A stretch of DNA of 64,000 nt from Bacteroidota bacterium (GTDB lineage Bacteria; Bacteroidota; Bacteroidia; Flavobacteriales_C; GCA-002722245), in contig JAPLEZ010000145.1 in NCBI GenBank assembly GCA_026390935.1, positions 143,961 through 207,960 on the forward strand, written 5' to 3'. The position numbers and the translations under genes are program-made. Below the pieces are notes generated by a model. That model did not search any database. It worked only from the letters and a program-made list of their open reading frames with translations, and was not told where the DNA came from. Positions 17,496 to 60,995 of this stretch are shown one piece after another. Within the stretch, counting starts at the first letter, position 1, and every line of letters begins with the position of its first letter.

Positions 17496-17538
17496 GGCCA
17501 GGTTAAACTATTGCAAAACGAATGGGAACGCATGGAAA

Positions 17539-17584
17539 ATGGTCCGGTAATGTCCTCCTGACGAAGGAAGGATCTATCGCCCTC
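17539..17584 (+). repeat. left inverted repeat of the GIY-YIG element (stem type i)
   Basis: About 45 bp. It matches in reverse complement the repeat at 17935-17980 with a single 1-nt indel. It carries the type i stem sequence (GTCCTCCTGACGAAGG followed by AAGGATCTATCGCCCT) also found at 50615-50719 and 60896-60995. Here the CGCCCT end points towards the nuclease gene. Confidence 0.9.
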
Positions 17585-17929: not shown

Positions 17930-17934
17930 AGTAT

Positions 17935-17980
17935 AGGGCGATAGATCCTTCCTTCGTCCAGGAGGACATTACCGGACCAT
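17935..17980 (-). repeat. right inverted repeat of the GIY-YIG element (stem type i)
   Basis: Reverse complement of the left repeat at 17539-17584 except for one extra C (GTCCAGGAGG instead of GTCAGGAGG). It starts 6 bp after the nuclease stop codon. Beyond the stem, both copies share ATTACCGGACCAT and then diverge. Confidence 0.9.
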
Positions 17981-18063
17981 ATTCACTGCACTTCCGCCAT
18001 TAGTGCCTCGAGGTGACCAATAAATTAAATTTTGCAGTTTGCACTTCTTAGAAAGAATAATTC

Positions 18064-36795: not shown

Positions 36796-36888
36796 ATAGA
36801 TCCTGAAACAAGTGCAGGATGACATTAGCGGGCATTATCTGAAGAATATGGTTCACATTGGTCATCCTGAACTTGTTTCAGGATCTAT
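36796..36888 (+). repeat. hairpin element, stem type ii, conserved 37-nt core
   Basis: 28-bp stems (ATAGATCCTGAAACAAG followed by TGCAGGATGAC on the left; 36861-36888 on the right) with one mismatch flank a 37-nt core (36824-36860). The core begins ATTAGCGGGCATT and ends TATGGTTCACATTG. Each stem half also contains its own small inverted repeat (CCTGAA/TTCAGG). It lies between the DUF6428 gene and the phosphatase gene. Confidence 0.92.
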
Positions 36889-36921
36889 TTTCATTCTAAA
36901 TAATAATCAAAAAATAAAACC

Positions 36922-37533
36922 ATGAATACCCTTTTACCTTCTCTCGAAAGCTTCAGAAAAAAGCTTGATTTTTCAGTCATCTCTGATGAAAGAAAAATAA
37001 TTTTAAATGAATTGATCACCTACATTCAGCAGCAGCGTAATTCCGGCAAAGAAATTCACCTGAATTTTATTTGCACGCACAACAGTCGTAGAAGTCAGTT
37101 CTCCCAAATCTGGGCACAAACTGCCGCCTATTATTATGGGATAAAAGCCCATTGTTATTCGGGCGGAGTGGAAGTAACGGCATTTAATGAACGTGCCGTT
37201 GAATCTATAAAGCGGACAGGATTCAAAGTGGAAAAAAACGGAGAAGGCAATCCGAAATATTCGCTTTTTTTCTCTGATGATGCAGCGCCTATTATTGCTT
37301 TTTCAAAATTGTATGATGATGAAACAAGCGCGAAATCAAATTTTGCAGCAGTAATGACCTGTTCTCATGCCGATGAGAATTGTCCCTTCATTCCCGGTGC
37401 CGACAAACGCATTCCGGTGAGATATAACGATCCAAAAGCATTTGACGACACTCCTCTTGAAGTGCAAAAGTACGATGAGCGCTCAAAAGAAATTGCTACT
37501 GAAATGTTTTATATTTTTAGTCAAATATTATAG
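36922..37533 (+). CDS. arsenate reductase-like low-molecular-weight phosphatase
   Basis: 203 residues. The domain is of the low-molecular-weight protein tyrosine phosphatase/ArsC type, preceded by about 45 extra residues. The P-loop is FICTHNSRRSQFSQIW (CX5R-like, with Cys near residue 50). AVMTCSHADENCPFIPGADKR near residue 148 supplies further Cys residues for the thiol cascade. In this context it probably reduces arsenate to arsenite. It is followed 6 bp later by an aquaporin gene, as in arsenic operons that export arsenite through a channel. Confidence 0.82.
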   Translation: MNTLLPSLESFRKKLDFSVISDERKIILNELITYIQQQRNSGKEIHLNFICTHNSRRSQFSQIWAQTAAYYYGIKAHCYSGGVEVTAFNERAVESIKRTGFKVEKNGEGNPKYSLFFSDDAAPIIAFSKLYDDETSAKSNFAAVMTCSHADENCPFIPGADKRIPVRYNDPKAFDDTPLEVQKYDERSKEIATEMFYIFSQIL

Positions 37534-37539
37534 ACGCAA

Positions 37540-38172
37540 ATGAAAAAACATTTCCCTGAATTTCTAGCCACGTTTATTGTTGTGTTTTGCGGAACAGGTT
37601 CAATAATTATCAATCAAATTAGTGGCGGTATAATTGGTCATAGTGGTATTGCCGTGACGTTCGGATTGGTGATTATGGCGATGGTATATGCTTTTCCGAA
37701 AGCACAATTTAATCCTGCAGTATCATTGAGTTTAGCTCTTTTTGGCTTGTTGAATAAAGTCGACGCAGCGAAAAATATCGCGTTTCAGTTTGCAGGGGCT
37801 TTTGCAGCAAGTGTAGTATTAAAATTAATATTTCCAGAAGCACTAACATTAGGCGCCACTATTCCTTCCGGACCGCATATGCAATCGTTTATTTTAGAAA
37901 TATTTTTGATGTTTTTCTTGGTGTTGGCTGCGTTAAAAGTGGGTGAATATACCAAAGAAATTCAAGCTTTTACAGGAGTTGTAGTTGGCGGAGTAGTATT
38001 GCTGGAAGCCATGTTTGCCGGACCAATTAGCGGAGCATCAATGAATCCTGCGCGTAGTTTTGCTCCAGCTATTTTAAGCGGGAATTTGGATGGATTGTGG
38101 ATTTATTTAACGGCGCCTTTTATTGGAGCCATAGGAGCATTTATAGTTTGGAAATGGTTAAAAGAGATATAG
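37540..38172 (+). CDS. MIP-family channel (aquaporin/AqpS-like), probable arsenite efflux channel
   Basis: 210 residues with six membrane segments and both NPA motifs (FNPAVSLSLAL near residue 53, MNPARSFAPA near 168). MIP channels conduct water, glycerol or As(OH)3. The position directly behind an arsenate-reductase-like gene in an arsR cluster resembles the aqpS type of resistance, in which arsenite made in the cell leaves by diffusion. No ArsB or Acr3 pump gene was found nearby, which supports this reading. The end overlaps the haemoglobin gene by 19 bp. Confidence 0.85.
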   Translation: MKKHFPEFLATFIVVFCGTGSIIINQISGGIIGHSGIAVTFGLVIMAMVYAFPKAQFNPAVSLSLALFGLLNKVDAAKNIAFQFAGAFAASVVLKLIFPEALTLGATIPSGPHMQSFILEIFLMFFLVLAALKVGEYTKEIQAFTGVVVGGVVLLEAMFAGPISGASMNPARSFAPAILSGNLDGLWIYLTAPFIGAIGAFIVWKWLKEI

Positions 38173-38537
38173 AAAATCGTGCAGATATTGAAGCATTGGT
38201 AAATGCATTTTATCTGAAGGTGGAAAAGGACGACGTGATTCGTCATTTTTTTACGGATGTGGTGAAACTGGATTGGAGTAAACATATTCCAGTGATGTAC
38301 GATTTTTGGGAATCCATTCTTTTAAATACGCACAACTACAAAGGAAATCCAATGCCTGCGCATGTTTCTCTCAACGAAAAGTCACCAATGAAAAAGGAGC
38401 ATTTCGACAGATGGATACAACTTTTTTCTGCTACTATAGATGAATTGTTTCAAGGTGAAAAGGCAGAGCAGGCAAAGACAAGAGCATTGTCAATTGCAAC
38501 TGTAATGCAAATAAAAATGATTCAAAAAAGTAAATAG
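38154..38537 (+). CDS. group III truncated haemoglobin
   Basis: 127 residues from the ATG at 38154, inside the end of the aquaporin gene; an in-frame ATG at 38097 would extend the overlap and is less likely. The 2-on-2 globin pattern is clear: LVNAFYLKVEKDDVIRHFFT, HIPVMYDFWESILLNTHNYKGNPMPAH (with the proximal His region near residue 62-70) and HFDRWIQLFSATIDELF. It binds O2, NO or similar ligands. Its overlap with the aquaporin gene shows that it belongs to the arsenic transcription unit, though its role there is unknown. Confidence 0.88.
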   Translation: MVKRDIENRADIEALVNAFYLKVEKDDVIRHFFTDVVKLDWSKHIPVMYDFWESILLNTHNYKGNPMPAHVSLNEKSPMKKEHFDRWIQLFSATIDELFQGEKAEQAKTRALSIATVMQIKMIQKSK

Positions 38538-38626
38538 ATCCTGAAACAAGTTCAGGAAGACGTTAGCATGTATTATCTGAAGAGTATGGTTCACATTTGT
38601 CATCCTGAACATGTTTCAGGATCTAT
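38534..38626 (+). repeat. hairpin element, stem type ii, conserved 37-nt core
   Basis: Same architecture and orientation as the element at 36796-36888: 28-bp stems with few mismatches and a core of exactly 37 nt (38562-38598) that begins GTTAGC and ends TATGGTTCACATTT. The left stem overlaps the stop of the haemoglobin gene. Together with the 36.8-kb copy it brackets the phosphatase-aquaporin-haemoglobin block. Confidence 0.92.
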
Positions 38627-38678
38627 TACAGGAGGACAAGAATAGGGTTACCTTTTTCATTTTTTGGAATGAATAAAT

Positions 38679-39326
38679 ATGAAAACCTTTTTTAAATATT
38701 TGTTGCGTTGCACTTTAGTGGTGCTTTCGTTGATTGCTTTATATTTCGTTGTAGCCTTTATTTTATCCTATATTCCGGCAGATGTAGAAGAAGTGCTCGA
38801 TGAAAAAAATCAAACATTTTACATTCAATCCAATGGGACACATTTGGATATTGTGTTGCCGGCAGAGGCGATTGACACTTCTTTTCTAAATAAATTACAA
38901 GTACCGAAAAGCACAAAATACCTTGCCTTCGGATGGGGAAATAAGGAGTTTTATTTTAATGTGCCTGAGTGGAAAGATCTTTCCGTGGGCTTAGCGTTTC
39001 GTGCAGCATTTATGCAATTGGAGGCGGCGCAAAGAGTCGCATACATAACACGATCTCGTGAGAATTGGACAGAGGTGAAAGTGAGTTCGTCGCAAATGAA
39101 AAAACTAAATGATTTCATTTTTTCATCTTTTGTTTTGAAAGAAAAGCAACTCGTGAAATGCGATTGTCCGCTTGAATATCAAAACGTAAATTTTTACGAT
39201 GCTAAGGGAAATTATTCCTGTATCAACACTTGCAATGTGTGGGTGAATGATGCCATGAAAGCCTCGGGGGTAGAGACTTCTGTGTGGTCGCCTTTTCATT
39301 TTGGTGTGCTGCATCATTTGGAATAA
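38679..39326 (+). CDS. DUF2459 / TIGR02117 family protein
   Basis: 215 residues. One N-terminal membrane segment (about 8-32) is followed by an extracytoplasmic domain. The family pattern is visible: SNGTHLDIVLPAEA, YLAFGWGNKEFYFNVPEWKDL, then a Cys-containing region (KCDCPLEYQ, SCINTCNVWVNDAMKASGVETSVWSPF). The THLD and CNTW-like motifs resemble an amidase/NlpC-like fold, but no activity is known. It is a single gene between a hairpin element and the kinase gene. Confidence 0.8.
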   Translation: MKTFFKYLLRCTLVVLSLIALYFVVAFILSYIPADVEEVLDEKNQTFYIQSNGTHLDIVLPAEAIDTSFLNKLQVPKSTKYLAFGWGNKEFYFNVPEWKDLSVGLAFRAAFMQLEAAQRVAYITRSRENWTEVKVSSSQMKKLNDFIFSSFVLKEKQLVKCDCPLEYQNVNFYDAKGNYSCINTCNVWVNDAMKASGVETSVWSPFHFGVLHHLE

Positions 39327-39350
39327 AAACGAAAATACTATCTTCATCAC

Positions 39351-40931
39351 ATGAAGAACTTTGTTGAAAAGCTGGATCATTTTTTCATTCATCCTAAACT
39401 TCACTCCAATATTGAAGAGTACGGAAGAGCCCGCATTTTACTGTATGCGATGATGATGACCACATTGTTTTCTGCTTCATATAGTACCTACTACGAATTA
39501 ACACATGAGAATATTCATATTGTAAAGCACGTCGCAAATATTGTTGGTGCTTTTACCGGATTGATAGGGATGATCCTTCTAAAGTTCATCTCAAAATTTA
39601 AAGTCACTTTTTTTTCAATGTTGGTGCTTGCGGATATTTTGGTGTTTACTAGCACTTTTTTTTCTGGTGGAATTTATTCGGTGGATTTACTGTGGATGGT
39701 GATTATTACCATGATAGGATTTTTGTTTGTAGGCAATAAGAGTGGAATTATTTTGTTGTTTACCGCATTGGCGTATTTTGCGGCTTTCTTCGCAATGGAG
39801 AATTTGGGCATTCATAATTTTGCAAAGGACAGTCTGGATTTAGGCGCTGGCTATAAGTTATACAATCTTATTTTTTTAGGAGGATTGGCTTCTTTCATCA
39901 CTTATTTTTTTGTGAGTGGAGCTGGTAAAATCAGAAAGGAGTTGGATGAGTTAAAGGAACGTCACGTAAAAAGTTTGGATTACAAATACCAACACATTAC
40001 TGAAAATGCAAACGAAATTATTGCATTGCACAGTGCAAATGGAGACACAACTTTTATCTCTTCTGCTATAAAATCAATTTTGGGTTATGAAGCAGAAGAA
40101 TTGCTGGGAAATAAATATGCTTTACTTTTAGGTGAACAGCTGGGGAACAAAGAATTGATGTGTGTTTCAAAGGATGGTAGAGAAGTGTGGTTGGAACTTT
40201 CATACAATCCCATTAAAGATGAAATGGGCAGCGGTGAAGTGTTTATTTCTATGGCGCGCGACATCAGTGCGAAAGTTTTAGAGAATCAGAAAATCACACA
40301 GCTGCGCAAGCAAATCGCCAATGATTTCCATGATGAAATGGGCAATAAACTGGCTGCCATTACTTTGAATTCAAATATTTTGTCCATCAAAACAAAAGAT
40401 AATCCGGAGGTGACAGATATTATTTCTAAAATTGAAAGCACTTCTAAATCTTTATACCAGCAATCTCGAGATTTCATTTGGTCTATTGACGCTAAGAGTG
40501 ATGAACTGCGGGAAATATTTTCTTACCTGAGAGATTTCGGGGACGATTTTTTTCATTCTCTTCCTGTTAATTTTTTGGTGGAAAGCAAAGGCTTTAGTGA
40601 GCAGGAAAAAATTATATTGCCCATGTATTGCGGTCGGCACATCATTTTAATTTTTAAAGAAGCGTTGACAAATTCTGCAAAGCACTCGAAATGTAAAAAT
40701 GTAATTTTGTCGCTGGCAATTGAAAAAGACGCCTTTACCATTAGCGCTAAAGATGATGGAAAGGGAATTTCAGCAGAAGCAAAGGCGGGAAAAGGATTGA
40801 ATTCCATTCGTGAACGCGCTAAGAATATTCATTGCGAATTGAATGTCGTTACAGATGCTTCAGGCACAAAAATTTCTCTGCGAGGAGAACTACCCAAAAT
40901 GGGTGAGATAGTATCATCAATTCAACAGTAG
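39351..40931 (+). CDS. membrane-bound PAS sensor kinase, HisKA_3 (NarX) type
   Basis: 526 residues. The first 190 residues hold six membrane segments. A PAS domain spans about 208-310 (ITENANEIIALHS ... MARDISAKV). The dimerisation motif ITQLRKQIANDFHDEMGNKLAA has the phospho-acceptor His at 327, in the HisKA_3/NarL-partner class. The HATPase domain shows LIFKEALTNSAKHSKC and AKDDGKGISAEAKAGKGLNSIRERA. It pairs with the LuxR-type regulator 9 bp downstream. Confidence 0.92.
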   Translation: MKNFVEKLDHFFIHPKLHSNIEEYGRARILLYAMMMTTLFSASYSTYYELTHENIHIVKHVANIVGAFTGLIGMILLKFISKFKVTFFSMLVLADILVFTSTFFSGGIYSVDLLWMVIITMIGFLFVGNKSGIILLFTALAYFAAFFAMENLGIHNFAKDSLDLGAGYKLYNLIFLGGLASFITYFFVSGAGKIRKELDELKERHVKSLDYKYQHITENANEIIALHSANGDTTFISSAIKSILGYEAEELLGNKYALLLGEQLGNKELMCVSKDGREVWLELSYNPIKDEMGSGEVFISMARDISAKVLENQKITQLRKQIANDFHDEMGNKLAAITLNSNILSIKTKDNPEVTDIISKIESTSKSLYQQSRDFIWSIDAKSDELREIFSYLRDFGDDFFHSLPVNFLVESKGFSEQEKIILPMYCGRHIILIFKEALTNSAKHSKCKNVILSLAIEKDAFTISAKDDGKGISAEAKAGKGLNSIRERAKNIHCELNVVTDASGTKISLRGELPKMGEIVSSIQQ

Positions 40932-40940
40932 TTTTGTAGT

Positions 40941-41561
40941 ATGGGAAACAGAATAGTGATTATTGAAGACAACAAAGACATTAGGGAAGCCTTTACTCTT
41001 TTATTGAATTTGCGAGATGATTTTTTAGTGGTGAATGCCTATTCCAATTGTGAAGATGCACTAAAAAATATAGAAGAAGATGCTCCACATATCGTATTGA
41101 TGGATATTGATTTGCCGGGTATGAGCGGTATTGAGGGCACTAAAATCATCAAGAAAAATTTGCCTTCCGCCAACATCATCATCATCACTGTTTTTGAAAA
41201 TGGCAAAACCGTTTTTGATGCGCTGTGTGCAGGTGCTACAGGCTATTTGACAAAGAATAGCGATAAGGACCGGCTCATGAGTGCCATCGACGAAGTGATT
41301 AAAGGCGGTGCGCCAATGAGCAGTAAAATTGCGCGATTGGTGGTACAGTCGTTTCAAAAAAACAGGAACTCACCCCTCACTTCCCGTGAAACGGAAATAC
41401 TTTCGCAAATCGCAGAAGGGAAGAGCTACACGAATATTGCCGATACCATTTTCATTTCAAAAGAAACAGTGAAATACCATATCAAAAACATCTACATCAA
41501 ATTGCAGGTGAACAATAAAGCCGACGCAATTAAAAGAGCGAACGAGGATAGGTTGATTTAA
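40941..41561 (+). CDS. NarL/LuxR-family response regulator
   Basis: 206 residues. The receiver domain (2-120) has acidic residues IIEDNKD, the phospho-acceptor D55 (VLMDIDLPGMSG) and the conserved Thr and Lys (IITVFENGK, YLTKNS). The C-terminal LuxR helix-turn-helix (about 140-205) has LTSRETEILSQIAEGKSYTNIADTIFISKETVKYHIKNIYIKL. It is probably phosphorylated by the kinase directly upstream. Three identical-layout palindromic sites just downstream (41896, 42023, 43160) are good candidates for its binding sites. Confidence 0.95.
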   Translation: MGNRIVIIEDNKDIREAFTLLLNLRDDFLVVNAYSNCEDALKNIEEDAPHIVLMDIDLPGMSGIEGTKIIKKNLPSANIIIITVFENGKTVFDALCAGATGYLTKNSDKDRLMSAIDEVIKGGAPMSSKIARLVVQSFQKNRNSPLTSRETEILSQIAEGKSYTNIADTIFISKETVKYHIKNIYIKLQVNNKADAIKRANEDRLI

Positions 41562-41882
41562 CCCACCCCTAGCCCCTCCAAGGAGGGGAATTAGTTACTG
41601 AACCATATTCAAATCATTTTCAGGAAATGCCAGCTAATTAATTCCCCTCCTTGGAGGGTGATGACCCAGCATTTGGCAAATCGGCTTTTTTATTGAGAAT
41701 GCTCCGCGCTCACGGCTTCGCCGGCGCGGAATCTTTTTGTTTAGAGCTTAATACGAGGCGAAGCATCTACACAAATAAATACCGCGCCGGCGAAGCCGTG
41801 AGCGCGGAGCGTGAAATCTTAGTTATTTGCCGATTTGCCAAATGCTGGGACATCACCCCTTGGAGGGGTTAGGGGTGGGTTG
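41560..41882. repeat. nested inverted-repeat structure (about 320 bp)
   Basis: Four stems are nested. An outer 24-bp stem pairs 41560-41583 with 41858-41881 (one mismatch; AACCCACCCCTA end). A side hairpin pairs 41582-41593 with 41639-41650 around a core that on the minus strand contains ATTAGCTGGCATTTCCTGAA and GAATATGGTTCA, the same core as in the type i and ii hairpins. A 30-bp stem pairs 41656-41685 with 41829-41858 (one mismatch). The innermost GC-rich 29-bp stem pairs 41701-41729 with 41782-41810 perfectly. No gene is encoded. It reads as hairpin elements inserted into one another. Confidence 0.92.
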
Positions 41883-41895
41883 ATTCAATAAAAAC

Positions 41896-41941
41896 TACCC
41901 AATTCAGGGAGTACAACTTTTTCATGTGGGCAGTAGTTTCG
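41896..41941 (+). promoter_or_regulatory. promoter 1 of the TACCC-motif set
   Basis: The 18-bp motif TACCCAATTCAGGGAGTA (41896-41913), preceded by AAAAAC, lies 20 nt upstream of TAGTTTCG (41934-41941), one mismatch from TAnnTTTG. It stands in front of the small ORF at 41946. The same layout occurs before both LamG genes. Confidence 0.6.
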
Positions 41942-41945
41942 TTGC

Positions 41946-42017
41946 ATGCAAAACAAACTCTTCCATTTCTTTCTTTTACTCCTTTCCATTTTTCTTTTGA
42001 TCATTTCGAAGCCCTAA
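41946..42017 (+). CDS. possible small hydrophobic peptide (23 residues)
   Basis: ATG to TAA, encoding 23 residues that read MQNKLFHFFLLLLSIFLLII followed by SKP. It is a single hydrophobic helix, either a membrane peptide or an orphan signal-peptide remnant. Support comes from the motif-bearing promoter whose -7 box ends 4 nt before the ATG. Without that promoter I would not report it. An alternative is a degraded third LamG/T9SS gene whose signal peptide alone survives. Confidence 0.4.
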   Translation: MQNKLFHFFLLLLSIFLLIISKP

Positions 42018-42022
42018 AAAAC

Positions 42023-42069
42023 TACCCAATATGGGGGGTACTGCTAAGGGTGTTCAGGACGTAGCTTTG
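42023..42069 (+). promoter_or_regulatory. promoter 2 of the TACCC-motif set (first LamG gene)
   Basis: The motif TACCCAATATGGGGGGTA (42023-42040), preceded by AAAAAAC, lies 21 nt upstream of a perfect -7 element TAGCTTTG (42062-42069). The gene starts at 42095. Confidence 0.7.
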
Positions 42070-42094
42070 GCCCATCACTAAAAAACCAGAAACT

Positions 42095-43099
42095 ATGAAC
42101 AAAAAAATTACTTCTTTATTTTTCACATTATTCGCTGCAACGTTTGTGATGGCGCAAACTGCGCCAGTATTGCACTTTAAAATTAAAGGCAATATAGCCG
42201 ATTCATCTACAAACAGTTTTGCCACTACAGCCATTGGTTCGGTGACGTATACCAATGGTCGTCACGGAGATGCAAGCAGCGGATTAGAAACAACAGCTGG
42301 AGCAATACAGCTCTCTAATGCTATGGGCGCATATAAAGTTTCTTTCCCTTTTACTTTTGCCACATGGATGAAGATCAATGGTTTCAAAACAGTAAATCCA
42401 CTTTTTACTTCTGAAGACGATCAAACATCTTATAGTGGAATATGGGTGCAGGTGCTTGCTGACGGAACGGTAGCTGCAAACGTGGGCAATGGCGGTTTGC
42501 CAAATTCTACAGGAAGAAAATCGGCTGTCACAAATTCGCCTGTAATTACCAATACTAATGCTTGGTATCAAATTGTGGTGGTAGCCAATTCCATTTCCAA
42601 TTTTGCAATTTATGTGAATGGCGTGTTGGCTCCATCTACTTTGTCGGGTTCGGCAACAAGTATGGTGTATCTCAATGGCATGAACAGTTTTGGAAAAGTG
42701 GGTTCGTACAACAAAGGCAGCTCAAGCAATTATTATTTTGATGGTGTAATTGATGAAATGGCTTTGTGGTCAACGGGGATCAATGAAAGTGAATTGGATG
42801 CTATTTTATTAGAAGGCACAACCAATTACAACACTGCTGTTGAAAACAAGGAGGAAGTGAATTTTTCCTTTTACCCGAATCCATCCAATGATAATATTTC
42901 TATCACACTGCCTTCCTCTTTCAATGGTGAAAGCACCAGCATTAAAATTTACGATGCTTTGGGTGCTTTAGTTAAGCAAGAGCAGATTACTGTTTCAGGT
43001 GTTCATGATTTATTGATTCAGGATTTGGCGAAAGGAGCTTACGTGCTACAAATTCAAAACGATAGAGGAAGTGCTAATAAAGCGCTTATCGCTTATTAG
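42095..43099 (+). CDS. LamG-domain protein with T9SS sorting domain
   Basis: 334 residues. A signal peptide (ending VMAQT) precedes a LamG/concanavalin-like domain at about residues 25-245 (FTFATWMKIN, WYQIVVVANSISNFAIYVNGV, FDGVIDEMALWSTGI). The last 75 residues are a T9SS type A sorting domain (FSFYPNPSNDNISI ... KGAYVLQIQNDRGSANKALIAY). It should be secreted and surface-attached; LamG domains bind glycans or proteins. It shares its promoter motif with the next LamG gene and has its own terminator. Confidence 0.88.
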   Translation: MNKKITSLFFTLFAATFVMAQTAPVLHFKIKGNIADSSTNSFATTAIGSVTYTNGRHGDASSGLETTAGAIQLSNAMGAYKVSFPFTFATWMKINGFKTVNPLFTSEDDQTSYSGIWVQVLADGTVAANVGNGGLPNSTGRKSAVTNSPVITNTNAWYQIVVVANSISNFAIYVNGVLAPSTLSGSATSMVYLNGMNSFGKVGSYNKGSSSNYYFDGVIDEMALWSTGINESELDAILLEGTTNYNTAVENKEEVNFSFYPNPSNDNISITLPSSFNGESTSIKIYDALGALVKQEQITVSGVHDLLIQDLAKGAYVLQIQNDRGSANKALIAY

Positions 43100-43117
43100 T
43101 GATTGTCTAAATTTTTT

Positions 43118-43149
43118 AAAAGCTCCTGTTAAAAACAGGGGCTTTTTTT
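43118..43149 (+). terminator. intrinsic terminator after the first LamG gene
   Basis: AAAAGCTCCTGTT pairs with AACAGGGGCTTTT around a short A-rich loop, followed by T residues. Confidence 0.9.
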
Positions 43150-43159
43150 ATTTAAAAAC

Positions 43160-43206
43160 TACCCACATTGGGGGATACAGCATCCCTGCTTCTGCATGTA
43201 GATTTG
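43160..43206 (+). promoter_or_regulatory. promoter 3 of the TACCC-motif set (second LamG gene)
   Basis: The motif TACCCACATTGGGGGATA (43160-43177), preceded by AAAAAC, lies 21 nt upstream of a perfect -7 element TAGATTTG (43199-43206). The gene starts at 43226. It follows directly on the terminator of the first LamG gene, so the second gene is transcribed independently. Confidence 0.7.
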
Positions 43207-43225
43207 CTCAACTAAAATAAATACT

Positions 43226-44782
43226 ATGAAAAAACAATTACTCACATTAATGCTCATTGCTTTTTTATGCAATGGTTCTTTCGCTTTTAACAAAGCTATC
43301 AACACCTATTCTTCTGGTTATGGTGCTACTTCCACGTATCCTTTAACAGGAGTATGTGCTTTTACACTTGAAACCTGGTTCAATGGTTCATCAGGAACAA
43401 CGTACGCTCGATTAATTAGTTTTTCTAATTATGCATTTGAAATTGCTGGTGGAGGAGGAACAATTAGTATTTATGATGGATCCTGGAGAGCTACTGGTGT
43501 TACTGGAATGGGTAGTGGCTGGCATCATGTAGCGGTTACCAATGACCTAACGAATTTTGTTGTGTATGTGGACGGAGTGCAGGTATATACCAAAGCTTCT
43601 GTTGCAAGAGATTTTACAGGACAAGTGATGAATATCGGACACGATGCTAAAGTTCATACTGCCAATCAGAGATTTCCCGGGAAATTCGATGAAGTTAGAG
43701 TTTGGAACAGAGCTTTATCTGCGATAGAAATTGCTATTGTAAAAACCAAGCAAGCGTTAGGTACTGAAAGTGGTTTGGTGGTGTATTATGATTTTAACGA
43801 CGGAACAGGAACAAATAAAGTGAGCAACACACATCATTTAACCCTTGCAAGCTCTCCAGCTATTATCACCACCAATTTCATCGACTATATCAAAGATTGG
43901 GGCATGTCGTACGATGGTACAGATGATAGAACTTATTTGGCAACACCTATTACAGGCAACAACAATTTCACTTTCGAAACGCAATTTAAAACTACATCAA
44001 CAAATCCTTCAACTCATAGCCGATTTATTAGCTTTCCATCCTACCTATGTGAAGTAGCTATTGTAAATGGAGTGATACAATCATACATGGGCTCAGGAAC
44101 CTGGGTAGCTTGTTCTGGAAGCGGATTTAACGACGGACAATGGCATCACTTGGGAGTTACAAAAAATGGAACAGCAGTAACCATTTACGTTGATGGTGTT
44201 GTTGTAGGAACAAGATCCGCAACACTCAATCTATCTAGCAACATGTATTTTGGCGGGACTTCAGTTTCAACAGATTATTTTGTAGGAACTTTGGATGAGA
44301 TCAGAATTTGGAATATTGTAAGAACTAAGGATGAAATCGGACTAAATTTTAATACCGAGTTGGCTGGCAATGAAACGGGTTTAGTAGCTTATTGGGATTT
44401 CAATACAGCAACTGGAGCAACAAATATTAGTAATATGGTTAATTCTGGGACAGCCTTGACACGAGCTGGTGCTGGAGGCTCAAACAATTATCCGCAATTT
44501 GTCGATGCCACAAAAAATGAAATTGCAACTTCAACCAATGAAATTTTATCAGCAAATGAATCTGTGCTTACAGTGTATCCAAATCCGTTTACTTCAGTAA
44601 TTACTTTGAACATACCTTCAGTAAATAAGGTAGTGGTGATGGATGCAGCTGGTAAAGCGGTTTTTTCGGTAAATAATTCGGGTTCACAAATTGATTTGTC
44701 GTCGTTGAATGCCGGAACATATTTCATGAATGTTTATAGCGATCAAGCAGTGCAAACCGCTATTGTAGTGAAACAGCAATAA
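43226..44782 (+). CDS. double LamG-domain protein with T9SS sorting domain
   Basis: 518 residues. A signal peptide (ending GSFAF) is followed by two LamG/concanavalin-like domains at about 22-210 and 225-420, each with the pattern FTLETWF, GWHHVAVTNDLTNFVVYVDGV and FDEVRVWNRALS. The C-terminus (about 440-518) is a T9SS type A sorting domain (VLTVYPNPFTSVITLNIPS ... AGTYFMNVYS). It is likely a surface adhesin or glycan-binding protein. It uses the same promoter layout as the preceding LamG gene. Confidence 0.88.
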   Translation: MKKQLLTLMLIAFLCNGSFAFNKAINTYSSGYGATSTYPLTGVCAFTLETWFNGSSGTTYARLISFSNYAFEIAGGGGTISIYDGSWRATGVTGMGSGWHHVAVTNDLTNFVVYVDGVQVYTKASVARDFTGQVMNIGHDAKVHTANQRFPGKFDEVRVWNRALSAIEIAIVKTKQALGTESGLVVYYDFNDGTGTNKVSNTHHLTLASSPAIITTNFIDYIKDWGMSYDGTDDRTYLATPITGNNNFTFETQFKTTSTNPSTHSRFISFPSYLCEVAIVNGVIQSYMGSGTWVACSGSGFNDGQWHHLGVTKNGTAVTIYVDGVVVGTRSATLNLSSNMYFGGTSVSTDYFVGTLDEIRIWNIVRTKDEIGLNFNTELAGNETGLVAYWDFNTATGATNISNMVNSGTALTRAGAGGSNNYPQFVDATKNEIATSTNEILSANESVLTVYPNPFTSVITLNIPSVNKVVVMDAAGKAVFSVNNSGSQIDLSSLNAGTYFMNVYSDQAVQTAIVVKQQ

Positions 44783-44807
44783 ATTTTCTCAGTTGTTTTT
44801 TAAAGCC

Positions 44808-44840
44808 AAAAAGCTCTTGTCATATGACGGGAGCTTTTTT
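44808..44840 (+). terminator. intrinsic terminator after the second LamG gene
   Basis: AAAAGCTCTTGTCAT pairs almost completely with ATGACGGGAGCTTTT (T-G pairs included), followed by T residues. Confidence 0.9.
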
Positions 44841-44844
44841 GTTT

Positions 44845-44852
44845 TATCTTTA
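44845..44852 (+). promoter_or_regulatory. -7 promoter element (TATCTTTA) of tRNA-Arg
   Basis: One mismatch from TAnnTTTG, ending 7 nt before the first base of the tRNA, the same arrangement as at tRNA-Cys. Confidence 0.4.
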
Positions 44853-44859
44853 CCCTGCT

Positions 44860-44933
44860 GGTTTCGTAGCTCAACTGGATAGAGCATCAGGCTTCGAACC
44901 TGAGGGTTGGGGGTTCGAATCCCTTCGGGACCA
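44860..44933 (+). tRNA. tRNA-Arg (anticodon TCG)
   Basis: The acceptor stem is GGTTTCG/CGGGACC (with two G-T pairs) and the D arm is GCTC-AACTGGATA-GAGC. The anticodon stem TCAGG/CCTGA encloses the loop CTTCGAA with anticodon TCG, and the T arm contains GGG-TTCGAAT-CCC. The discriminator base is A (44933). The 3' CCA is not encoded, unlike at tRNA-Cys. Confidence 0.95.
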
Positions 44934-44948
44934 CACTTAGCGCATCTA

Positions 44949-44985
44949 AAAAGGCTTGAAAGCATTGATTTTCAAGTCTTTTTTG
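44949..44985 (+). terminator. intrinsic terminator after tRNA-Arg
   Basis: AAAAAGGCTTGAAA pairs with TTTCAAGTCTTTTT around a short loop, followed by T residues. It lies just downstream of the convergent glycosyltransferase stop and may serve both directions. Confidence 0.75.
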
Positions 44986-44993
44986 TTTTTGTT

Positions 44994-47006
44994 CTAATAT
45001 ATTTTAAACTCAAAATCGTGGTAGTATAAACTGTCGTGTTGAACGTTGTTGATACTAATGAAAAACTCATAGGGCGCTTTCGTGATTTTTGGAAGATATA
45101 CTGGTAGATCTATTTTTTCCCATTGACCGTTTTTTTTCAGTAAGTTTTTTAGTCGGAAGGTTTTATTAAAAACACCTTCATCATCTACTACCACCGATAC
45201 CGCTATTTCGCAATTTACTTGCTTAGGGGAGAAGAAGTAAGAGGAGATGAGCACGATATTATCGCGTTGTGTGATCAACGGAATATTTTTGGATTTGTAA
45301 GCGATGCCGTAGTCCATTGTGGGCGTCATAAATCCTACCGGTTGATTTTCAAACAGAAGTTTTTTTGTACTTTTTCTATTGTGCCAATGCGCCTGTTGTT
45401 TGAGTCCTGGAATAAATTTTTCGTGCAGTAACAGTTCTTTGTTTTCTATGCCGATAAAGTCGTGTAAACTTTGATTTACATTAGATAGCGCACAAACTGA
45501 GATTTTACCATTGTCGGCAATTTTTTTAATTCTTGTCAAAATTTCAGGACAGTTCAAATAAACATCTGTGACAAAAAACTCATTTTGAACCACAATATAA
45601 TCGTACTTCCATTGCAGTGCTTTTAGCAAATTTTCTTTAGTGGTGGTCATTACAGCAAATCCTTTTCGTTGCATGAGCACAAAGGGAATGTTGGGGGCGT
45701 ATGCGTCAATCACAAGGATGGTGGCGTTGCGTTTTATTTTAAGCTGATCGAGAAATTCAGCTGAACCTTCAAAATTGTTTGTGGTTGCAGCAACTCTGTC
45801 CCAGGATCCACTTTCTCTTTTTAGTTTTTGTGTGTGCAAAGCTGCTGCTGCAAGCGGAATTCCTACAAGTAGCAAAGCTAGAGTTGCCAAGCGAGGAGCG
45901 CGATTAAAGTGCGGTAAGCGGGCTAACAGAAGAATGAGAAATAAAAGCGCTGGAAGAAAAAAGCTGTCTAAAAAGTAATAGTCGTGAGCAGGAAATTGTC
46001 GCAGCATAGCGATGGCGAAAAGCACGCAACCAACAAAATATGCGGTCAGAAAAATACCCATGGAGCGCAGAGGTAATGCACGCTCTGCTTTGCTTTTAAA
46101 CATTTGGAGTAGTGCGCCCAGCAGCACAAGCGATAGCAACATGTAGTGGATTGCAGTGAAGTATTGAGTGCTCCAATTGTTGTACACATCTTTAACTATT
46201 TCTTTGGTTCCATGTAAAGTTTTGGCTGGCAGTAGTTGATTTAAAAAAAGCGAGCCATAAGTGAATTGCATGTGATTTTGATAGGCAATCGCGGTAAACA
46301 GAATAAGGGCTGCCGCAGGGAAAGCCAGAAGCAGCGATTTAAACGCAATTTCTTTTTTGATACTGCGCAAAATTTCTAGTCCGAAAACAGCAATCAACGG
46401 CAAAACAAATGTTGTTCTGGCCAGCGCACCAAGCAAGAGAAAGCCAATCGCGACGTACAAGTTTTTTTGCCTACCGTCTTGCAAATATTTTACATAGAAA
46501 TGGAGGCCGATGATGGCGTTGGCCAAGGAAGGAATAGTAGGCAGAAAGCCTGACTGATAGTAAACAAATACGGGCGAGCAGGCGGCGAAGAGCAGCACTA
46601 GTAGCGATTTAAAAAAGTCTTTAGTCAGCAACTGCGTCAATTGAAACAGAAAAAACAAAGCAGCGAAACTATAAAGTAAAATATATCCTCTAAAAATACA
46701 GGGAGCGTTTGTATTAAAAAGCTTCATGAAGATGGCTGGAATATAATCGTGGATAGGGAAATTCACAGCAGTAATTCTTTCGGCAGACGGCACTTCAAAA
46801 TTGCCAGGAAACTGGCGATTGAGCACATAGGTTTGAGGATGAAAGAAATCGAGATTGTTTTCCACAAAACCGATGGAAAGCGCATATCTATCGCTTTGTG
46901 CCCAGGCGTGCGTATGTGAAGGAAAATCGTTGATGTAGGAATGCTGAAAGAGAATTCCCAGTATCAAGATGACGCAGAATGCAAATGCTGATTCAAATTT
47001 TTTCAT
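44994..47006 (-). CDS. membrane glycosyltransferase, GT39/ArnT-like (GT-C fold)
   Basis: 670 residues. About ten to twelve membrane segments occupy residues 8-400, followed by an extracytoplasmic C-terminal domain of about 270 residues. The first loop (HAWAQSDRYALSIGFVENN) contains the acidic residue expected for the catalytic site of GT-C enzymes, and ARTTFVLPL is typical of PMT/ArnT relatives. It probably transfers a sugar from a lipid-linked donor to an envelope component; donor and acceptor are unknown. It is a single gene on the minus strand. Confidence 0.75.
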   Translation of the reverse strand: MKKFESAFAFCVILILGILFQHSYINDFPSHTHAWAQSDRYALSIGFVENNLDFFHPQTYVLNRQFPGNFEVPSAERITAVNFPIHDYIPAIFMKLFNTNAPCIFRGYILLYSFAALFFLFQLTQLLTKDFFKSLLVLLFAACSPVFVYYQSGFLPTIPSLANAIIGLHFYVKYLQDGRQKNLYVAIGFLLLGALARTTFVLPLIAVFGLEILRSIKKEIAFKSLLLAFPAAALILFTAIAYQNHMQFTYGSLFLNQLLPAKTLHGTKEIVKDVYNNWSTQYFTAIHYMLLSLVLLGALLQMFKSKAERALPLRSMGIFLTAYFVGCVLFAIAMLRQFPAHDYYFLDSFFLPALLFLILLLARLPHFNRAPRLATLALLLVGIPLAAAALHTQKLKRESGSWDRVAATTNNFEGSAEFLDQLKIKRNATILVIDAYAPNIPFVLMQRKGFAVMTTTKENLLKALQWKYDYIVVQNEFFVTDVYLNCPEILTRIKKIADNGKISVCALSNVNQSLHDFIGIENKELLLHEKFIPGLKQQAHWHNRKSTKKLLFENQPVGFMTPTMDYGIAYKSKNIPLITQRDNIVLISSYFFSPKQVNCEIAVSVVVDDEGVFNKTFRLKNLLKKNGQWEKIDLPVYLPKITKAPYEFFISINNVQHDSLYYHDFEFKIY

Positions 47007-47101
47007 ATCGGTTAAAAGGCCTTCTGTGTTTTCCTTTAGTGAAAGTACTTATCTCTTTGGAAAATAAATTCTTTGTTGGTGAAAAATATTTTAGATCATA
47101 C

Positions 47102-47130
47102 TAGGGGTATTTTCATGTTCGGTTGTCTTA
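47102..47130 (+). promoter_or_regulatory. probable autoregulated ECF promoter of the sigma factor gene
   Basis: TAGGGGTA (47102-47109) and TTGTCTTA (47123-47130) are separated by 13 nt. The same pair with the same spacing occurs twice upstream of the surface-repeat gene at 50.8 kb. This fits the -35/-10 elements of an ECF sigma factor that activates its own operon. Confidence 0.65.
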
Positions 47131-47184
47131 ATGATATTGCTGTACATTCTTAAAATGTATCTTAGCGGAAATTTTCTGAATGAG

Positions 47185-47760
47185 ATGCATTTGAATGAGC
47201 AGCAATACTGGCAGTTTATTCGTGAAGGCGATAAAAAAGTGTTTGAACAAGCGTTCAAGACTTACTATTCTCCTTTGTGCAATTATGCTTGCTCAATTTT
47301 GAAAGATATGGATGAAGCAGAAGAGGTAGTGCAAAATTTATTTTATTCCATTTGGAATAAGCGAGAATCTTTGCAGATTACTGATTCCTTGAAATCCTAT
47401 TTATACAGGGCAACGCACAATGATTGTTTGAACAAGTTGAAACACGGCAAGGTGCGGGCGATGCATGCTGAAGAAATTAAAATGACCACAGGATTTCATT
47501 CTGATGATGCATCAAAAGATTTGCAGGGAAAGGAATTGGCCGCGCAAATCAACACTGCAATTGAAGCGCTTCCTGAGCAATGTGGAATAGTATTTAAACT
47601 GAGTCGTTTTGAAGAATTGAAATATTCGGAAATAGCAGCACAACTGAATATTTCCATCAAAACGGTAGAAAATCATATGGGTAAAGCTTTGAAGCTATTG
47701 CGCGATAGTTTAAAGGAATATTTGCCTTTTTGGCTGCTGATGTTATTTTTAAATTGTTGA
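47185..47760 (+). CDS. ECF sigma factor (RpoE/FecI type)
   Basis: 191 residues from the ATG at 47185. An upstream in-frame ATG at 47131 directly abuts the presumed -10 element and would lie before the transcription start, so it is rejected. Region 2 is AFKTYYSPLCNYACSILKDMDEAEEVVQNLFYSIW; region 4 is EELKYSEIAAQLNISIKTVENHMGKALKLLR. It belongs to the Bacteroidota sigma-70 family that works with FecR-type anti-sigma factors. The FecR gene starts one base after the stop, and an STN-domain protein follows, so this is a transmembrane signalling unit. Confidence 0.9.
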   Translation: MHLNEQQYWQFIREGDKKVFEQAFKTYYSPLCNYACSILKDMDEAEEVVQNLFYSIWNKRESLQITDSLKSYLYRATHNDCLNKLKHGKVRAMHAEEIKMTTGFHSDDASKDLQGKELAAQINTAIEALPEQCGIVFKLSRFEELKYSEIAAQLNISIKTVENHMGKALKLLRDSLKEYLPFWLLMLFLNC

Positions 47761-47761
47761 T

Positions 47762-48757
47762 ATGGAACTAGAAAATATAGACGATTTAATTGCAAAAGTG
47801 CTCGCTGGAGAAGCCAGTGAGAAGGAAATTTCTACTCTCAATGCATGGAGAAATGTTTCGGATGAAAACAGAGTTTATGTAACGCAAAGTGAAGAAATTT
47901 TTCATCAGATACACAGTGTGCGTTTGGAGCGTAAAGTGGATGTGAATAGAGCCTGGAAGGACTTAAATGAAAAAATTTCAACTCCCGAAATCAAGAAAAT
48001 TTCGTGGTTCAACAGCAAAACGATCATTAGAATTGCAGCATTATTTATTATTCTTTTAGGTGCAGCCCTAACATTAAAATTGTTGAATCACGACAATGCG
48101 CAAAGTACTATGCAAGTGGTGGCAAGCAACACTAGCGTGTTGGATACTTTGCCAGATGGAAGCACTGTCTTTTTGAACAAAAAAAGTACGATTACTTATT
48201 CATTAAATGCGGATAATATTCGTGAAGTGCACTTGAGCGGTGAAGCATTTTTTAACGTGGTGCACAACAAGGAGCAAGCATTTGAAATTGTAATTGATGG
48301 CGTGAGGGTAAAAGATATCGGCACAGCGTTCAATGTAAAAGCACTACCTGGAAGCAATGAGGTGGAGGTAGTTGTAGAAGAAGGAGAAGTGCAATTTTTC
48401 ACCAATGACAACCAAGGGCTTAATTTGATTAAGGGACAGAAAGCGCAGTACAATTTAAACACGAAATTATTTTCGCAAAGCGTGATCAATGTGAATGAAA
48501 ATGCATTGAGCTATCGTACCAAGGAATTTCATTTTAGCGAAAGCACTTTGAAAGAAGTAGTACAAAAACTGAATGATGTGTATGCTTGCGACATTCGTTT
48601 GTACGACGATAAAATTGCCAATTGTAAAGTGTCGGTGGTTTTTAAAAATGAAGATTTAGAAATGATACTTTCTGTTTTATCCGAAACACTTGATTTAAAA
48701 ATTGAACGAAAAGAAAATCATTTTCTTTTGAAGGGAGAATCCTGTTCGGAAATTTAA
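47762..48757 (+). CDS. FecR-family anti-sigma factor
   Basis: 331 residues. The N-terminal cytoplasmic region (about 1-80, including the LIAKVLAGEASEKEISTLNAWR motif) binds the sigma factor. One membrane segment follows at about 84-106. The periplasmic FecR domain (about 118-220) contains LPDGSTVFLNKKSTITY and VKDIGTAFNVKALPGSNEVEVVVEEGEV. A DUF4974 domain forms the last 75 residues. It should hold the sigma factor inactive until an outer-membrane STN-domain partner signals. The next gene begins 3 bp after its stop. Confidence 0.93.
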   Translation: MELENIDDLIAKVLAGEASEKEISTLNAWRNVSDENRVYVTQSEEIFHQIHSVRLERKVDVNRAWKDLNEKISTPEIKKISWFNSKTIIRIAALFIILLGAALTLKLLNHDNAQSTMQVVASNTSVLDTLPDGSTVFLNKKSTITYSLNADNIREVHLSGEAFFNVVHNKEQAFEIVIDGVRVKDIGTAFNVKALPGSNEVEVVVEEGEVQFFTNDNQGLNLIKGQKAQYNLNTKLFSQSVINVNENALSYRTKEFHFSESTLKEVVQKLNDVYACDIRLYDDKIANCKVSVVFKNEDLEMILSVLSETLDLKIERKENHFLLKGESCSEI

Positions 48758-48760
48758 TTT

Positions 48761-50581
48761 ATGAAGCAGCGCATCGTCCTTCTTTTGCTTGGTTTTTTCT
48801 TGTGTACTCAATCTGCATATGCTGTGGTTCCTGCGTTGGAGCGGGAAGTAAATTTTACTGTAAGCAATGAACCCATTGCAAAAGTTCTTGCAAAAATACA
48901 GGAGCAAACCGATGTAATTTTCTCTTACAATTCTTTATTGCTGAGTAATATTTCTCCGCTTACTTTACAACTCAAACACAAAACCATTCGTGAAGCACTC
49001 ACTTTAATGTTGCCAAAATCGATAGAGTATAAGGCCAAAAACAACTACATCATATTGAAGGAGCAAGTCGTTAAACCGAATGAAAAGAAAAAAGAAATCA
49101 GCGGTTACGTTTATGAAAAGAACACGAACAAAAAAGTAGCCAACGTTACCATTTACGATAAAACCACCTTACAATCGGCAACCACCAACGATTACGGATT
49201 TTATAGCATAAGTGCTGCTAAAGAAGAACAGTGCTTAACGGTGAACAAAGAAAAGTACCGCGATACTTGTGTGGCGCTCACCACGCTGGAAGATTCACAA
49301 CTTGCCAACATTACTATTGATCCTGTTGCCGATACTTTGCAAGAAGATAGCTTGCGATGGAAGTTAGCGCGTGCGGAATTTAACACGCATATCAACAATT
49401 TATTTGTGCGTTCTAAGGCGTATTTCAATATGCTCAATGTGAAAGATAGTTTGTCTCGCGACTTCCAATTGTCACTTCTTCCTTTCGTTGGAACGAATGG
49501 CTTGCTGTCGGGAAATGTGTACAATAAATTTTCTGTCAATGTATTTGGTGGTTATGCTCGTGGAACTAAAGGAGTGGAAGCAGGAGGTTTTTTTAACATC
49601 GACAGGGAGAACATGAAAGGTGCACAATTTGCGGGATTTTTTAACGTGGTGGGTGATACAATGAAGGGAGTGCAGGCGGCAGGGTTTTTTAATGTAACGG
49701 GAAAAGGCGCGCGGGGAATTCAAGGGGCAGGTTTTTTTAATTTAAATTTTGGGGAAGTGAAAGGTGTACAGGGCGCTGGATTTTTAAATGTAAATCGGGA
49801 ATTGTTTAAGGGCCTGCAAATGGCCGGATTCATGAATGTGGGATTAAACAATTTATATGGAGGAACACTTTCTGGGTTGGTAAATTTCACATGGAAAAGT
49901 AATCGTTCTATTGAAGCTGCAGGATTGGTGAACGTTGCCCAATTTGGGGATAACAACATACAACTTGCCGGATTGGCAAACAAAACAACAAAGGGCACAA
50001 CAGCTTTTCAGGCGGCAGGATTACTCAACAGCGCTCACTTTTTAAAAGGAGCGCAAATAGGTGTGATCAACTATGCTGATTCAGCAAGCGGAGTTCCAAT
50101 TGGCTTATTAAGCATTGTAAAAACTGGGGTTCATCAAATTGAAATTTCGGCCGATGAGTGGATGTACGGCAATGTATCTTTGCGAAGTGGAGTGAATGCT
50201 TTCCACAATATTTTTAGCGCTGGTATTAGTCCCAATCAAAATGTATGGCAAGTTGGGTACGGTGTAGGAACTTCGATTAAAATAAAAAATAAATTAAGAG
50301 CTGATGTAAACGTATCGGTGCATCATATCAGCAAAGGAAATTTTTATATAGGCACCAGTGAATGGGGTAAAATTTATCTTGGTTTGGAATACCGTTTTTC
50401 AAAAGGATTGTCGCTTGCTGCGGGTCCTACATTTAATTTTTATTGGTCGGATAAATTGTTGCCCGACTATAACAGCACGTACAGCAGCATAACTCCGTAT
50501 CATTCGTACAATGTTGATTTGGCAAACGATTTCAACTTAAAGGGATGGTATGGTGCACGAGTGGCGCTGAGGGTTTTTTAA
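48761..50581 (+). CDS. STN-domain outer-membrane protein with LA_2272-type surface repeats
   Basis: 606 residues. A signal peptide (ending SAYAV) precedes an STN domain at about 28-105 (FTVSNEPIAKVLAKIQEQT, YKAKNNYIILKE). A carboxypeptidase-like regulatory domain spans about 112-190. About ten GaQ-AGFfNv repeats follow (residues 260-440), then a barrel-like C-terminus of 170 residues (LYRF/YRFSKGLSLAAGPTFNFYW). The repeats resemble the LA_2272 surface-repeat family. It occupies the place usually held by a TonB receptor in FecIR systems, but no TonB plug domain is visible. It probably signals to FecR through the STN domain. Confidence 0.8.
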   Translation: MKQRIVLLLLGFFLCTQSAYAVVPALEREVNFTVSNEPIAKVLAKIQEQTDVIFSYNSLLLSNISPLTLQLKHKTIREALTLMLPKSIEYKAKNNYIILKEQVVKPNEKKKEISGYVYEKNTNKKVANVTIYDKTTLQSATTNDYGFYSISAAKEEQCLTVNKEKYRDTCVALTTLEDSQLANITIDPVADTLQEDSLRWKLARAEFNTHINNLFVRSKAYFNMLNVKDSLSRDFQLSLLPFVGTNGLLSGNVYNKFSVNVFGGYARGTKGVEAGGFFNIDRENMKGAQFAGFFNVVGDTMKGVQAAGFFNVTGKGARGIQGAGFFNLNFGEVKGVQGAGFLNVNRELFKGLQMAGFMNVGLNNLYGGTLSGLVNFTWKSNRSIEAAGLVNVAQFGDNNIQLAGLANKTTKGTTAFQAAGLLNSAHFLKGAQIGVINYADSASGVPIGLLSIVKTGVHQIEISADEWMYGNVSLRSGVNAFHNIFSAGISPNQNVWQVGYGVGTSIKIKNKLRADVNVSVHHISKGNFYIGTSEWGKIYLGLEYRFSKGLSLAAGPTFNFYWSDKLLPDYNSTYSSITPYHSYNVDLANDFNLKGWYGARVALRVF

Positions 50582-50614
50582 ATAACATTCTAAAAGTAGT
50601 TAGGAGTGCGATGT

Positions 50615-50719
50615 AAAGGGCGATAGATCCTTCCTTCGTCAGGAGGACAAATGTGAACCACACTCGGCAGGAAATGCCCGCTAATGTCCTCCTGACGAAG
50701 GAAGGATCTATCGCCCTTT
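50615..50719. repeat. hairpin element, stem type i, conserved 37-nt core
   Basis: Perfect 34-bp inverted repeats (50615-50648 and 50686-50719; outer ends AAAGGGCGATAG and CTATCGCCCTTT) around a 37-nt core. Read on the minus strand, the core begins ATTAGCGGGCATT and ends TGTGGTTCACATTT; it matches the core of the type ii hairpin at 36.8 kb at 30 of 37 positions, although the stems differ. The stem equals the repeats around the GIY-YIG gene. Confidence 0.95.
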
Positions 50720-50774
50720 AAATAATACTGCTCCTGCTTAATCGCGCTTCTTTTTAAAATATTTTTTTCGGGAG

Positions 50775-50803
50775 TAGGGGTAAGTTCTTTTTATGTTGTC
50801 TTA
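50775..50803 (+). promoter_or_regulatory. ECF-type promoter, upstream copy
   Basis: TAGGGGTA (50775-50782), 13 nt, TTGTCTTA (50796-50803), identical in both elements and spacing to the sigma factor gene promoter. A transcript from here would include the first signal peptide at 50822. Confidence 0.65.
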
Positions 50804-50903
50804 AAGCAAAACATAAAAATTATGAAACATTTAAAACTACTTTTCACCATTGTCTTTTTCAATCTCTCTTTATTTTGTTTTGCTCAAGAGCTTTTTTCTG
50901 GAG

Positions 50904-60895: not shown

Positions 60896-60995
60896 CAGGG
60901 CGATAGATCCTTCGTTCGTCAGGAGGACATTACTTACCCATATTGGTATTTCCACTCTGGCTGTCCTCCTGACGAAGGAAGGATCTATCGCCCTG
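60896..60995. repeat. hairpin element, stem type i
   Basis: 34-bp inverted repeats (60896-60929 and 60962-60995; outer ends CAGGGCGATAG and CTATCGCCCTG) with one mismatch around a 32-nt centre. The stem matches that at 50.6 kb and the repeats around the GIY-YIG gene, but the centre is diverged from the 37-nt core. It lies between recO and uvrC and could end the recO transcript. Confidence 0.94.

Follow-up and report, generated by a model that had tools for sequence, protein, structure and literature searches.

Hairpins and a Bracketed Nuclease Gene in the Window

The DNA considered here is a stretch of 64,000 nt (the window, G000:C92:143961-207960) from the genome of a Bacteroidota bacterium (3.76 Mb in 155 contigs; G000, referred to below as the own genome). 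Its main features (Table 1) are a group of hairpins that lie between open reading frames (ORFs) and share a core sequence, and a small gene, P0001, which encodes a GIY-YIG protein as judged by Pfam. The hairpins are head-to-head dimers of CGTC-tagged repetitive extragenic palindromes (REPs), and P0001, within 17536-17989, is flanked by B-type units in inverted orientation, beyond which lie core-like half-sites. One hairpin, at 41.6 kb, lacks the GTC tag and is therefore not a CGTC REP.

The initial annotation of this region described three elements with a core of exactly 37 nt. This spacing was obtained for the elements at 36.8 and 38.5 kb, whose inverted arms of 28-29 nt are 96% and 93% complementary, respectively; the element at 50.6 kb was measured with 35 nt between longer arms (48 nt, 90% complementary). 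Counting by eye gave the identity reported before, 30 of 37 positions, between the core at 36.8 kb and the - strand of that at 50.6 kb. The side hairpin at 41.6 kb, said to hold the same core with an insertion, indeed contains a related core with an insertion (core-model match of 22.7 bits, E 3.3e-4). Related elements at 60896-60995 and around P0001 had been passed over. The ORF beside the former of these has a GIY-YIG match inside a frame of 601 aa, and we take it to be uvrC.

Table 1. Positions of the hairpins, the nuclease gene and its brackets in the window
Feature	Position	Strand
Left bracket of the GIY-YIG gene: half-core ATGGTCCGGTAATG and B-type unit, tag outward	17537..17583	
GIY-YIG nuclease gene P0001, 100 aa	17627..17929	+
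Right bracket of the GIY-YIG gene: inverted B-type unit, tag outward, and half-core CATTACCGGACCAT	17932..17989	
A-type head-to-head CGTC-REP dimer with core (36823-36861)	36796..36888	+
A-type dimer with core; CGTC tag of the left unit on the - strand	38534..38626	+
C-stem hairpin (CCCCTCCAAGGAGGGG), diverged core with insertion, no GTC tag; core-model match 41599-41638	41574..41658	-
B-type dimer, same core on the - strand (50648-50686)	50602..50732	-
B-type dimer, different core, just upstream of ORF 61017-62822	60896..60995	

Two further observations concern the surroundings of these elements. A 129-nt tandem duplication (50763-51020, 98% identical) lies directly beside the 50.6 kb dimer and spans the start of ORF 50822-52078, and several nested inverted repeats, among them a 45-nt pair (41701-41810), form an island at 41553-41888.

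Copies, Stems and Cores in the Genome

A blastn search of the own genome with the 36.8 kb element gave at least 85 match rows (40 of 69 candidates scored) and with the 50.6 kb element at least 63 (40 of 80 candidates scored), each palindromic element being counted in two rows, one per strand. A sequence-only model of the core, built from 34 rows with a mean column identity of 88%, gave at least 49 matches at E<=0.1, 34 of which had at least 34 bits (150 of 1850 candidates scored). The genome-wide scan that the initial annotation had called for thus found the core well beyond the window copies. It also refutes the idea that the hairpins are a few copies from one recent duplication, to which the 90% likeness of the 36.8 and 38.5 kb elements might point: dozens of copies are dispersed over many contigs with unrelated flanks, and we give that explanation practically no credence.

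The core was found under four stem types, A to D. The A stem (CCTGAAACAAGTTCAGG) carries it in most copies, the B stem (CCTTCCTTCGTCAGGAGG) at three places (C92:194608, which is the 50.6 kb copy, C48 and C12) and the D stem (CCTTCGCTGCGCTCAGG) at one place (C59); under the C stem at 41.6 kb the core match is weaker. Since other cores also occur under B stems, cores and stems have been combined in more than one way. The A, B and D stems have the foot GTC[AC]TCCTGA...AGGATC in common; as the apex alone distinguishes them, they represent variants of a single repeat and not unrelated stems. The earlier statement of several stem types is to this extent both right, in that the core occurs under all four, and in need of amendment, in that three of them are apex variants.

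Variation within one type was followed in 36 A-type dimers, obtained from 38 fetched stretches and the two window copies after four without two recognisable arms had been dropped. Over 36 x 26 pairs, 31 one-arm changes and three both-arm changes were counted, the latter all at the outermost position; the compensatory changes sought in the stems were thus not found basewise in these dimers. Changes amount to only about 2% in the A-type arms, as compared with about 12% in the core; within one type, therefore, the arms are the conserved part. The earlier description of a conserved loop with co-varying stems is largely contradicted by these figures, and the impression arose because copies of different stem types had been compared. 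Stem changes are block swaps between types, and the sharing of one core across stem types is only partly explained. At one A-type dimer of the own genome (L154, C97:13092-13435) the core is split by an insertion that itself has inverted ends.

These data also bear on the possibility that the hairpins act as RNA, being conserved small RNAs, terminators or regulators of which the core is the recognised part. The intergenic position of the window copies and the presence of one core under several stems would agree with it, but no Rfam match other than two tRNAs was found in the window, and the arms are conserved more than the core and show no compensatory change. We regard this explanation as hardly credible.

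The assignment to CGTC REPs follows the survey of Di Nocera et al. (2013; PMC3733652), which, in the portion drawn on here, describes a tag CGTC, TGTC or CCTC at one unpaired end, stems of 8-9 bp starting with AT, loops of 4-5 nt and a short tail, the units being mostly arranged as head-to-head dimers with conserved spacers and occurring in five phyla including Bacteroidetes. The dimers of the own genome are head-to-head with conserved spacers, and their A and B units have a TGTC, GGTC or CGTC tag beside the core. The A-type unit fits the description of the 8-bp stem class (ATCCTGAA / TTCAGGAT, loop 5); the B-type unit has a mismatched foot, a different apex and the tail CTA instead of CCA. 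According to the same portion of the survey, CGTC REPs "apparently lack a dedicated transposase"; its authors suggested that the enzyme had been lost or that others were borrowed (PMC3733652).

Matching Genes and Units Within the Genus

In the own genome, P0001 lies between B-type units, a second GIY-YIG gene (C17) between A-type units, and a third type of unit flanks a broken third gene (C5, a pseudogene). Every gene is thus matched with one unit type, the same on its left and right. The genes of the genus (G006-G009) are bracketed likewise: at 10 of 12 loci, inverted repeats of >=30 bits flank the gene on either side at a distance of up to 150 nt. The 12 loci include one from a sister genus (G004, L022) at which there is no inverted repeat, and apart from this relative no gene of the family was found in G001-G005.

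The abundance of the units was compared across the same genomes. The A-type unit gave 74 rows in G000 and 0-5 in nine other genomes, and the L019-type unit 57 in G006, 54 in G008 and 0-4 elsewhere. The L021-type unit gave 66 rows in G007, which has the intact gene, 24 in G008, which has genes of that type, 49 in G000, which has the pseudogene, and 0 in G009 and G001-G005. For the most part, high numbers of a REP type in the genus go with the presence of its matching gene; the one exception is G006, to which we return below.

Another candidate for the mover of these repeats is the REP-associated tyrosine transposase (RAYT), in which case the hairpins would be ordinary REPINs. The own genome does contain three Y1_Tnp genes, one of them a clear RAYT (NF047646, 103.6 bits, cut-off 80). 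However, a metric that misses mismatched units detected CGTC units at none of these genes, inspection by eye showed a different palindrome, GAAGCTGAAAGCTTC, on the flanks of two of them (L010 and L011), and the units of the hairpins are tagged GTC, not GTAG. The survey portion cited above likewise reports no tyrosine transposase gene flanked by CGTC units (PMC3733652). On account of the missing CGTC units and the other palindromes at L010 and L011, RAYT was rejected as the mover, and this explanation appears very unlikely. The genes L010 (C106) and L011 (C135), with their palindromes, represent a second, independent REP system in the own genome.

Association Beyond the Genus

A plasmid collection contained 33 records with a relative of the gene, including Sinorhizobium meliloti, Novosphingobium aromaticivorans, Azospirillum lipoferum and Neisseria, all of which also figure in the CGTC-REP survey as far as it was drawn on (PMC3733652). 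Twelve of these plasmid loci were fetched; judged from the listed inverted repeats and by visual inspection, CGTC units bracket the gene at seven (L034, L036, L037, L038, L039, L041 and L042), one gene is placed among CGTC units (L044, Neisseria gonorrhoeae), units or palindromes occur nearby at L033, L035 and L040, and none at L043. The units around the L044 gene, CGTCATTCCCGC...GGGAATC, are presumably dRS3 repeats. The bracketed gene of L041 (Azospirillum lipoferum AZO_p3) is located between sufB and sufC of an iron-sulfur (Fe-S) assembly cluster.

For a wider sample, GTDB genomes of many phyla were scanned with a profile of 19 proteins, and the best 80 of 574 confirmed loci were analysed with a working unit defined as the tag plus a 5-bp outer stem. 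An outward-tagged unit was present within 150 nt at 61 of 80 loci compared with 13 of 419 small control ORFs from the same loci, and on both sides at 37 of 80 compared with 2 of 419. A tight inverted repeat (>=34 bits) was found at 23/80 versus 1/294, with one contig-edge locus scored as a miss; a strict unit (8-bp near-perfect hairpin), too narrow a definition, at 19/80 versus 4/419. As the tag-and-stem metric finds 2 of the 12 genus loci versus 10 of 12 by the inverted-repeat test, the unit counts for the genus are lower bounds. The nearest unit points outward in 38 of 59 cases on the left and 45 of 63 on the right, and then lies at a median distance of 22 nt from the start and stop codon. 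The units of the family carry CGTC or TGTC across phyla, the search itself being keyed on that tag.

A control for specificity was provided by the UPF0213-like subfamily, for which the best-scoring loci of each search, 29 per subfamily, were taken from the same 198 Bacteroidota genomes. An outward unit was found at 12/29 loci and any unit at 15/29 in the present family, against 0/29 and 1/29 in the UPF0213-like subfamily; the inverted-repeat test at 30 bits gave only 3/29 against 0/29. GIY-YIG genes as such are therefore not drawn to these REPs. Some UPF0213-like genes (L025, L029, L031 and L032) were seen by eye to adjoin tRNA-like sequences, pieces of which are in some cases repeated after the gene, possibly another insertion habit.

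The units around one gene also resemble each other and match the protein. Left and right units of one gene have a similarity of 0.65 against 0.31 when permuted (n=44; 0 of 10,000 permutations), and units farther away in the stretch are likewise similar to those beside the gene (54 loci, 215 units; 0 of 10,000 permutations). Among the 71 of 102 loci with a detected unit, which include only 2 of the 10 genus loci offered, protein similarity and REP-unit similarity are correlated (Mantel r=0.44, 0 of 5000), also when cross-phylum pairs alone are considered (r=0.42, 0 of 5000). When each protein was paired with its closest counterpart outside its own phylum, the two agreed in REP class in 31 of 71 cases, against 7.9 expected and a maximum of 22. 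On the protein tree of 58 loci with a common REP class, this class changes 16 times, compared with 30-42 changes for shuffled labels and 34 for phylum labels; TTTCGA units, for example, accompany related proteins in Chloroflexi, Gammaproteobacteria, candidate phyla radiation (CPR) bacteria, Desulfobulbaceae and Planctomycetes. Protein sequence thus tracks REP class across phyla. The core had been suggested as the recognised part; with stems invariant within a type, stem units flanking the nuclease genes and nuclease sequence following stem class, this suggestion finds no support.

Features of the Nuclease

The Pfam domain PF01541 was detected in 19/19 family members, and the motif residues Y8, Y19, G21, R29, H33, E68 and N87 are invariant in 33/33 proteins. 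Putative catalytic roles of the Tyr, Tyr, Arg, His, Glu and Asn residues are taken from I-TevI, and their invariance argues for an active nuclease. The structure model of P0001 (pLDDT 92.2) consists of a single small domain, without a separate DNA-binding domain in its 100 residues. Compared with PDB entries, the model is closest to the UPF0213 protein 1zg2 (E 3.9e-4), followed by Slx1 with weak E-values of >=0.05; the nearest solved structures by sequence are the UPF0213 proteins 1zg2 and 1ywl. Slx1 is a nuclease of branched DNA, and a structure-directed cut at an extruded palindrome may be envisaged for the present family.

Alleles With and Without the Gene

In Sphingobium, the gene or a part of it was present in seven records, all of which align along the locus between fnrL and a response regulator. 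L042 and three more gene-bearing records were compared with four gene-less ones. Two of the latter, L196 and L198, contain one palindrome tagged at both ends, which equals, or nearly equals, the outer halves of the two brackets; this fused palindrome is not present in the other two, L197 and L202. It fits either a loss of the gene through the repeats or an insertion of the gene into a REP. Rhizobium was also searched for an empty site, and no usable one was found.

The second option leads to the explanation of the GIY-YIG gene as a passenger or homing gene whose insertion targets are existing REPs of a favoured type, the REPs themselves being moved by another enzyme. The doubly tagged palindrome of L196 and L198, located at the same point and made of outer bracket halves, speaks for it, as does G006, in which a REP type occurs without a matching gene having been found; insertion sequences that target REPs are reportedly known as well. 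Against it, protein and REP class go together across phyla, units are abundant mostly where the gene is present, the own genome yielded no other enzyme gene linked to these units, and the fused palindrome could equally be the scar of a loss. We consider this explanation unlikely.

Proposed Mechanism and Its Weight

The bracketing, the outward tags, the agreement in type of the units left and right of a gene, the correspondence between protein sequence and REP class across phyla and the conserved motif residues associate the gene family with these repeats. From this association we infer, with a probability of roughly 0.7, that the hairpins are non-autonomous paired CGTC REPs spread by cognate GIY-YIG nucleases. 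The partner of the dimers would be the small GIY-YIG nuclease gene bracketed by the same units, as a RAYT gene is found among its REPINs. The nuclease would read the tag and palindrome of its cognate unit, possibly in the extruded form of a hairpin or cruciform, and cut there, and repair or copying from another copy would then spread the dimers and, more rarely, the gene cassette. The core would be a spacer carried along; its presence under several stem types would go back to elements that retained it while exchanging the apex, the part of the unit facing the nuclease. For both arms to change at once, the simplest route would be correction of the palindrome through template switching as the DNA is replicated.

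Several points weigh against this proposal. Cleavage and movement are steps deduced from the association. The loci L022 and L043 have no bracket, 19 of the 80 wider loci have no outward unit by the tag-and-stem metric, and in Bacteroidota only 12 of 29 family loci have one. The nearest unit points inward in 21 of 59 cases on the left and 18 of 63 on the right, and tail-to-tail pairs outnumber head-to-head pairs at the wider loci (89 versus 65), whereas the window dimers are head-to-head. The L021-type unit gave 34 rows in G006 though no matching gene was found there, an exception to be explained by gene loss or by another enzyme. The protein tree is weakly resolved, 43 of its 68 inner branches being open, and the proposal does not account for the untagged C-type stem at 41.6 kb.

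In a broader formulation, to which we attach somewhat less confidence while still thinking it rather probable, GIY-YIG nucleases would be the missing dedicated enzymes of the CGTC-REP superfamily and drive the spread of these repeats across many phyla without a transposase or integrase, each lineage reading its own palindrome class and travelling with it between phyla; the dRS3 units of Neisseria, which we take to be members, would be part of the same system. If this is true, a nuclease superfamily is added to the known drivers of small bacterial repeats, in parallel to RAYT/REPIN, and a common gene whose sole annotation is "GIY-YIG nuclease family protein" would gain a possible role. With a candidate enzyme that varies in step with its repeat, the question of what moves CGTC REPs becomes directly testable in vitro.

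Other Features of the Window

Three 28-nt repeats of the form AAAAACTACCC...GGG(T/A)TAC-like, with internal symmetry, are located at 41890-41917, 42017-42044 and 43154-43181, near ORF 40941-41561 and upstream of the ORFs starting at 42095 and 43226; they are possible operator sites. Two window proteins have type IX secretion sorting tails, which points to Bacteroidota.

Comparison With Known Systems

The present elements are like the CGTC REPs of PMC3733652, as described in the portion of that survey used here, in the CGTC/TGTC tag, the 8-bp stem and 5-nt loop of the A type, the dimers with conserved spacers, the high copy number, the presence in Bacteroidetes and the lack of a RAYT alongside. 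They differ from that description in the GIY-YIG gene tied to the units, in the mismatched foot of the B stems and in one spacer being common to several REP types. The GIY-YIG link may answer the question of the missing enzyme of CGTC REPs; a literature search, with bioRxiv and most subscription journals outside its reach, found no report linking GIY-YIG to REPs.

With free-standing GIY-YIG nucleases (UPF0213/COG2827-like proteins, homing endonucleases and Slx1), the family shares the GIY-YIG fold and the invariant motif residues. Unlike the UPF0213-like subfamily, in which the outward CGTC unit is absent (0/29), the present family has such units, and unlike homing endonucleases, it was seen here without an intron or intein host.

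The closest parallel in organisation is provided by the RAYT/REPIN systems, or REPtrons (PMC3116915, PMC8266576). In both cases, as far as these two sources were drawn on, paired inverted REPs are the likely replicative unit, the gene of the cognate enzyme is found among its own REP type, and enzyme and REP co-evolve. The two systems are distinguished by the enzyme, which is here a GIY-YIG nuclease and not an HUH tyrosine transposase, and by the tag, which is CGTC and not GTAG.

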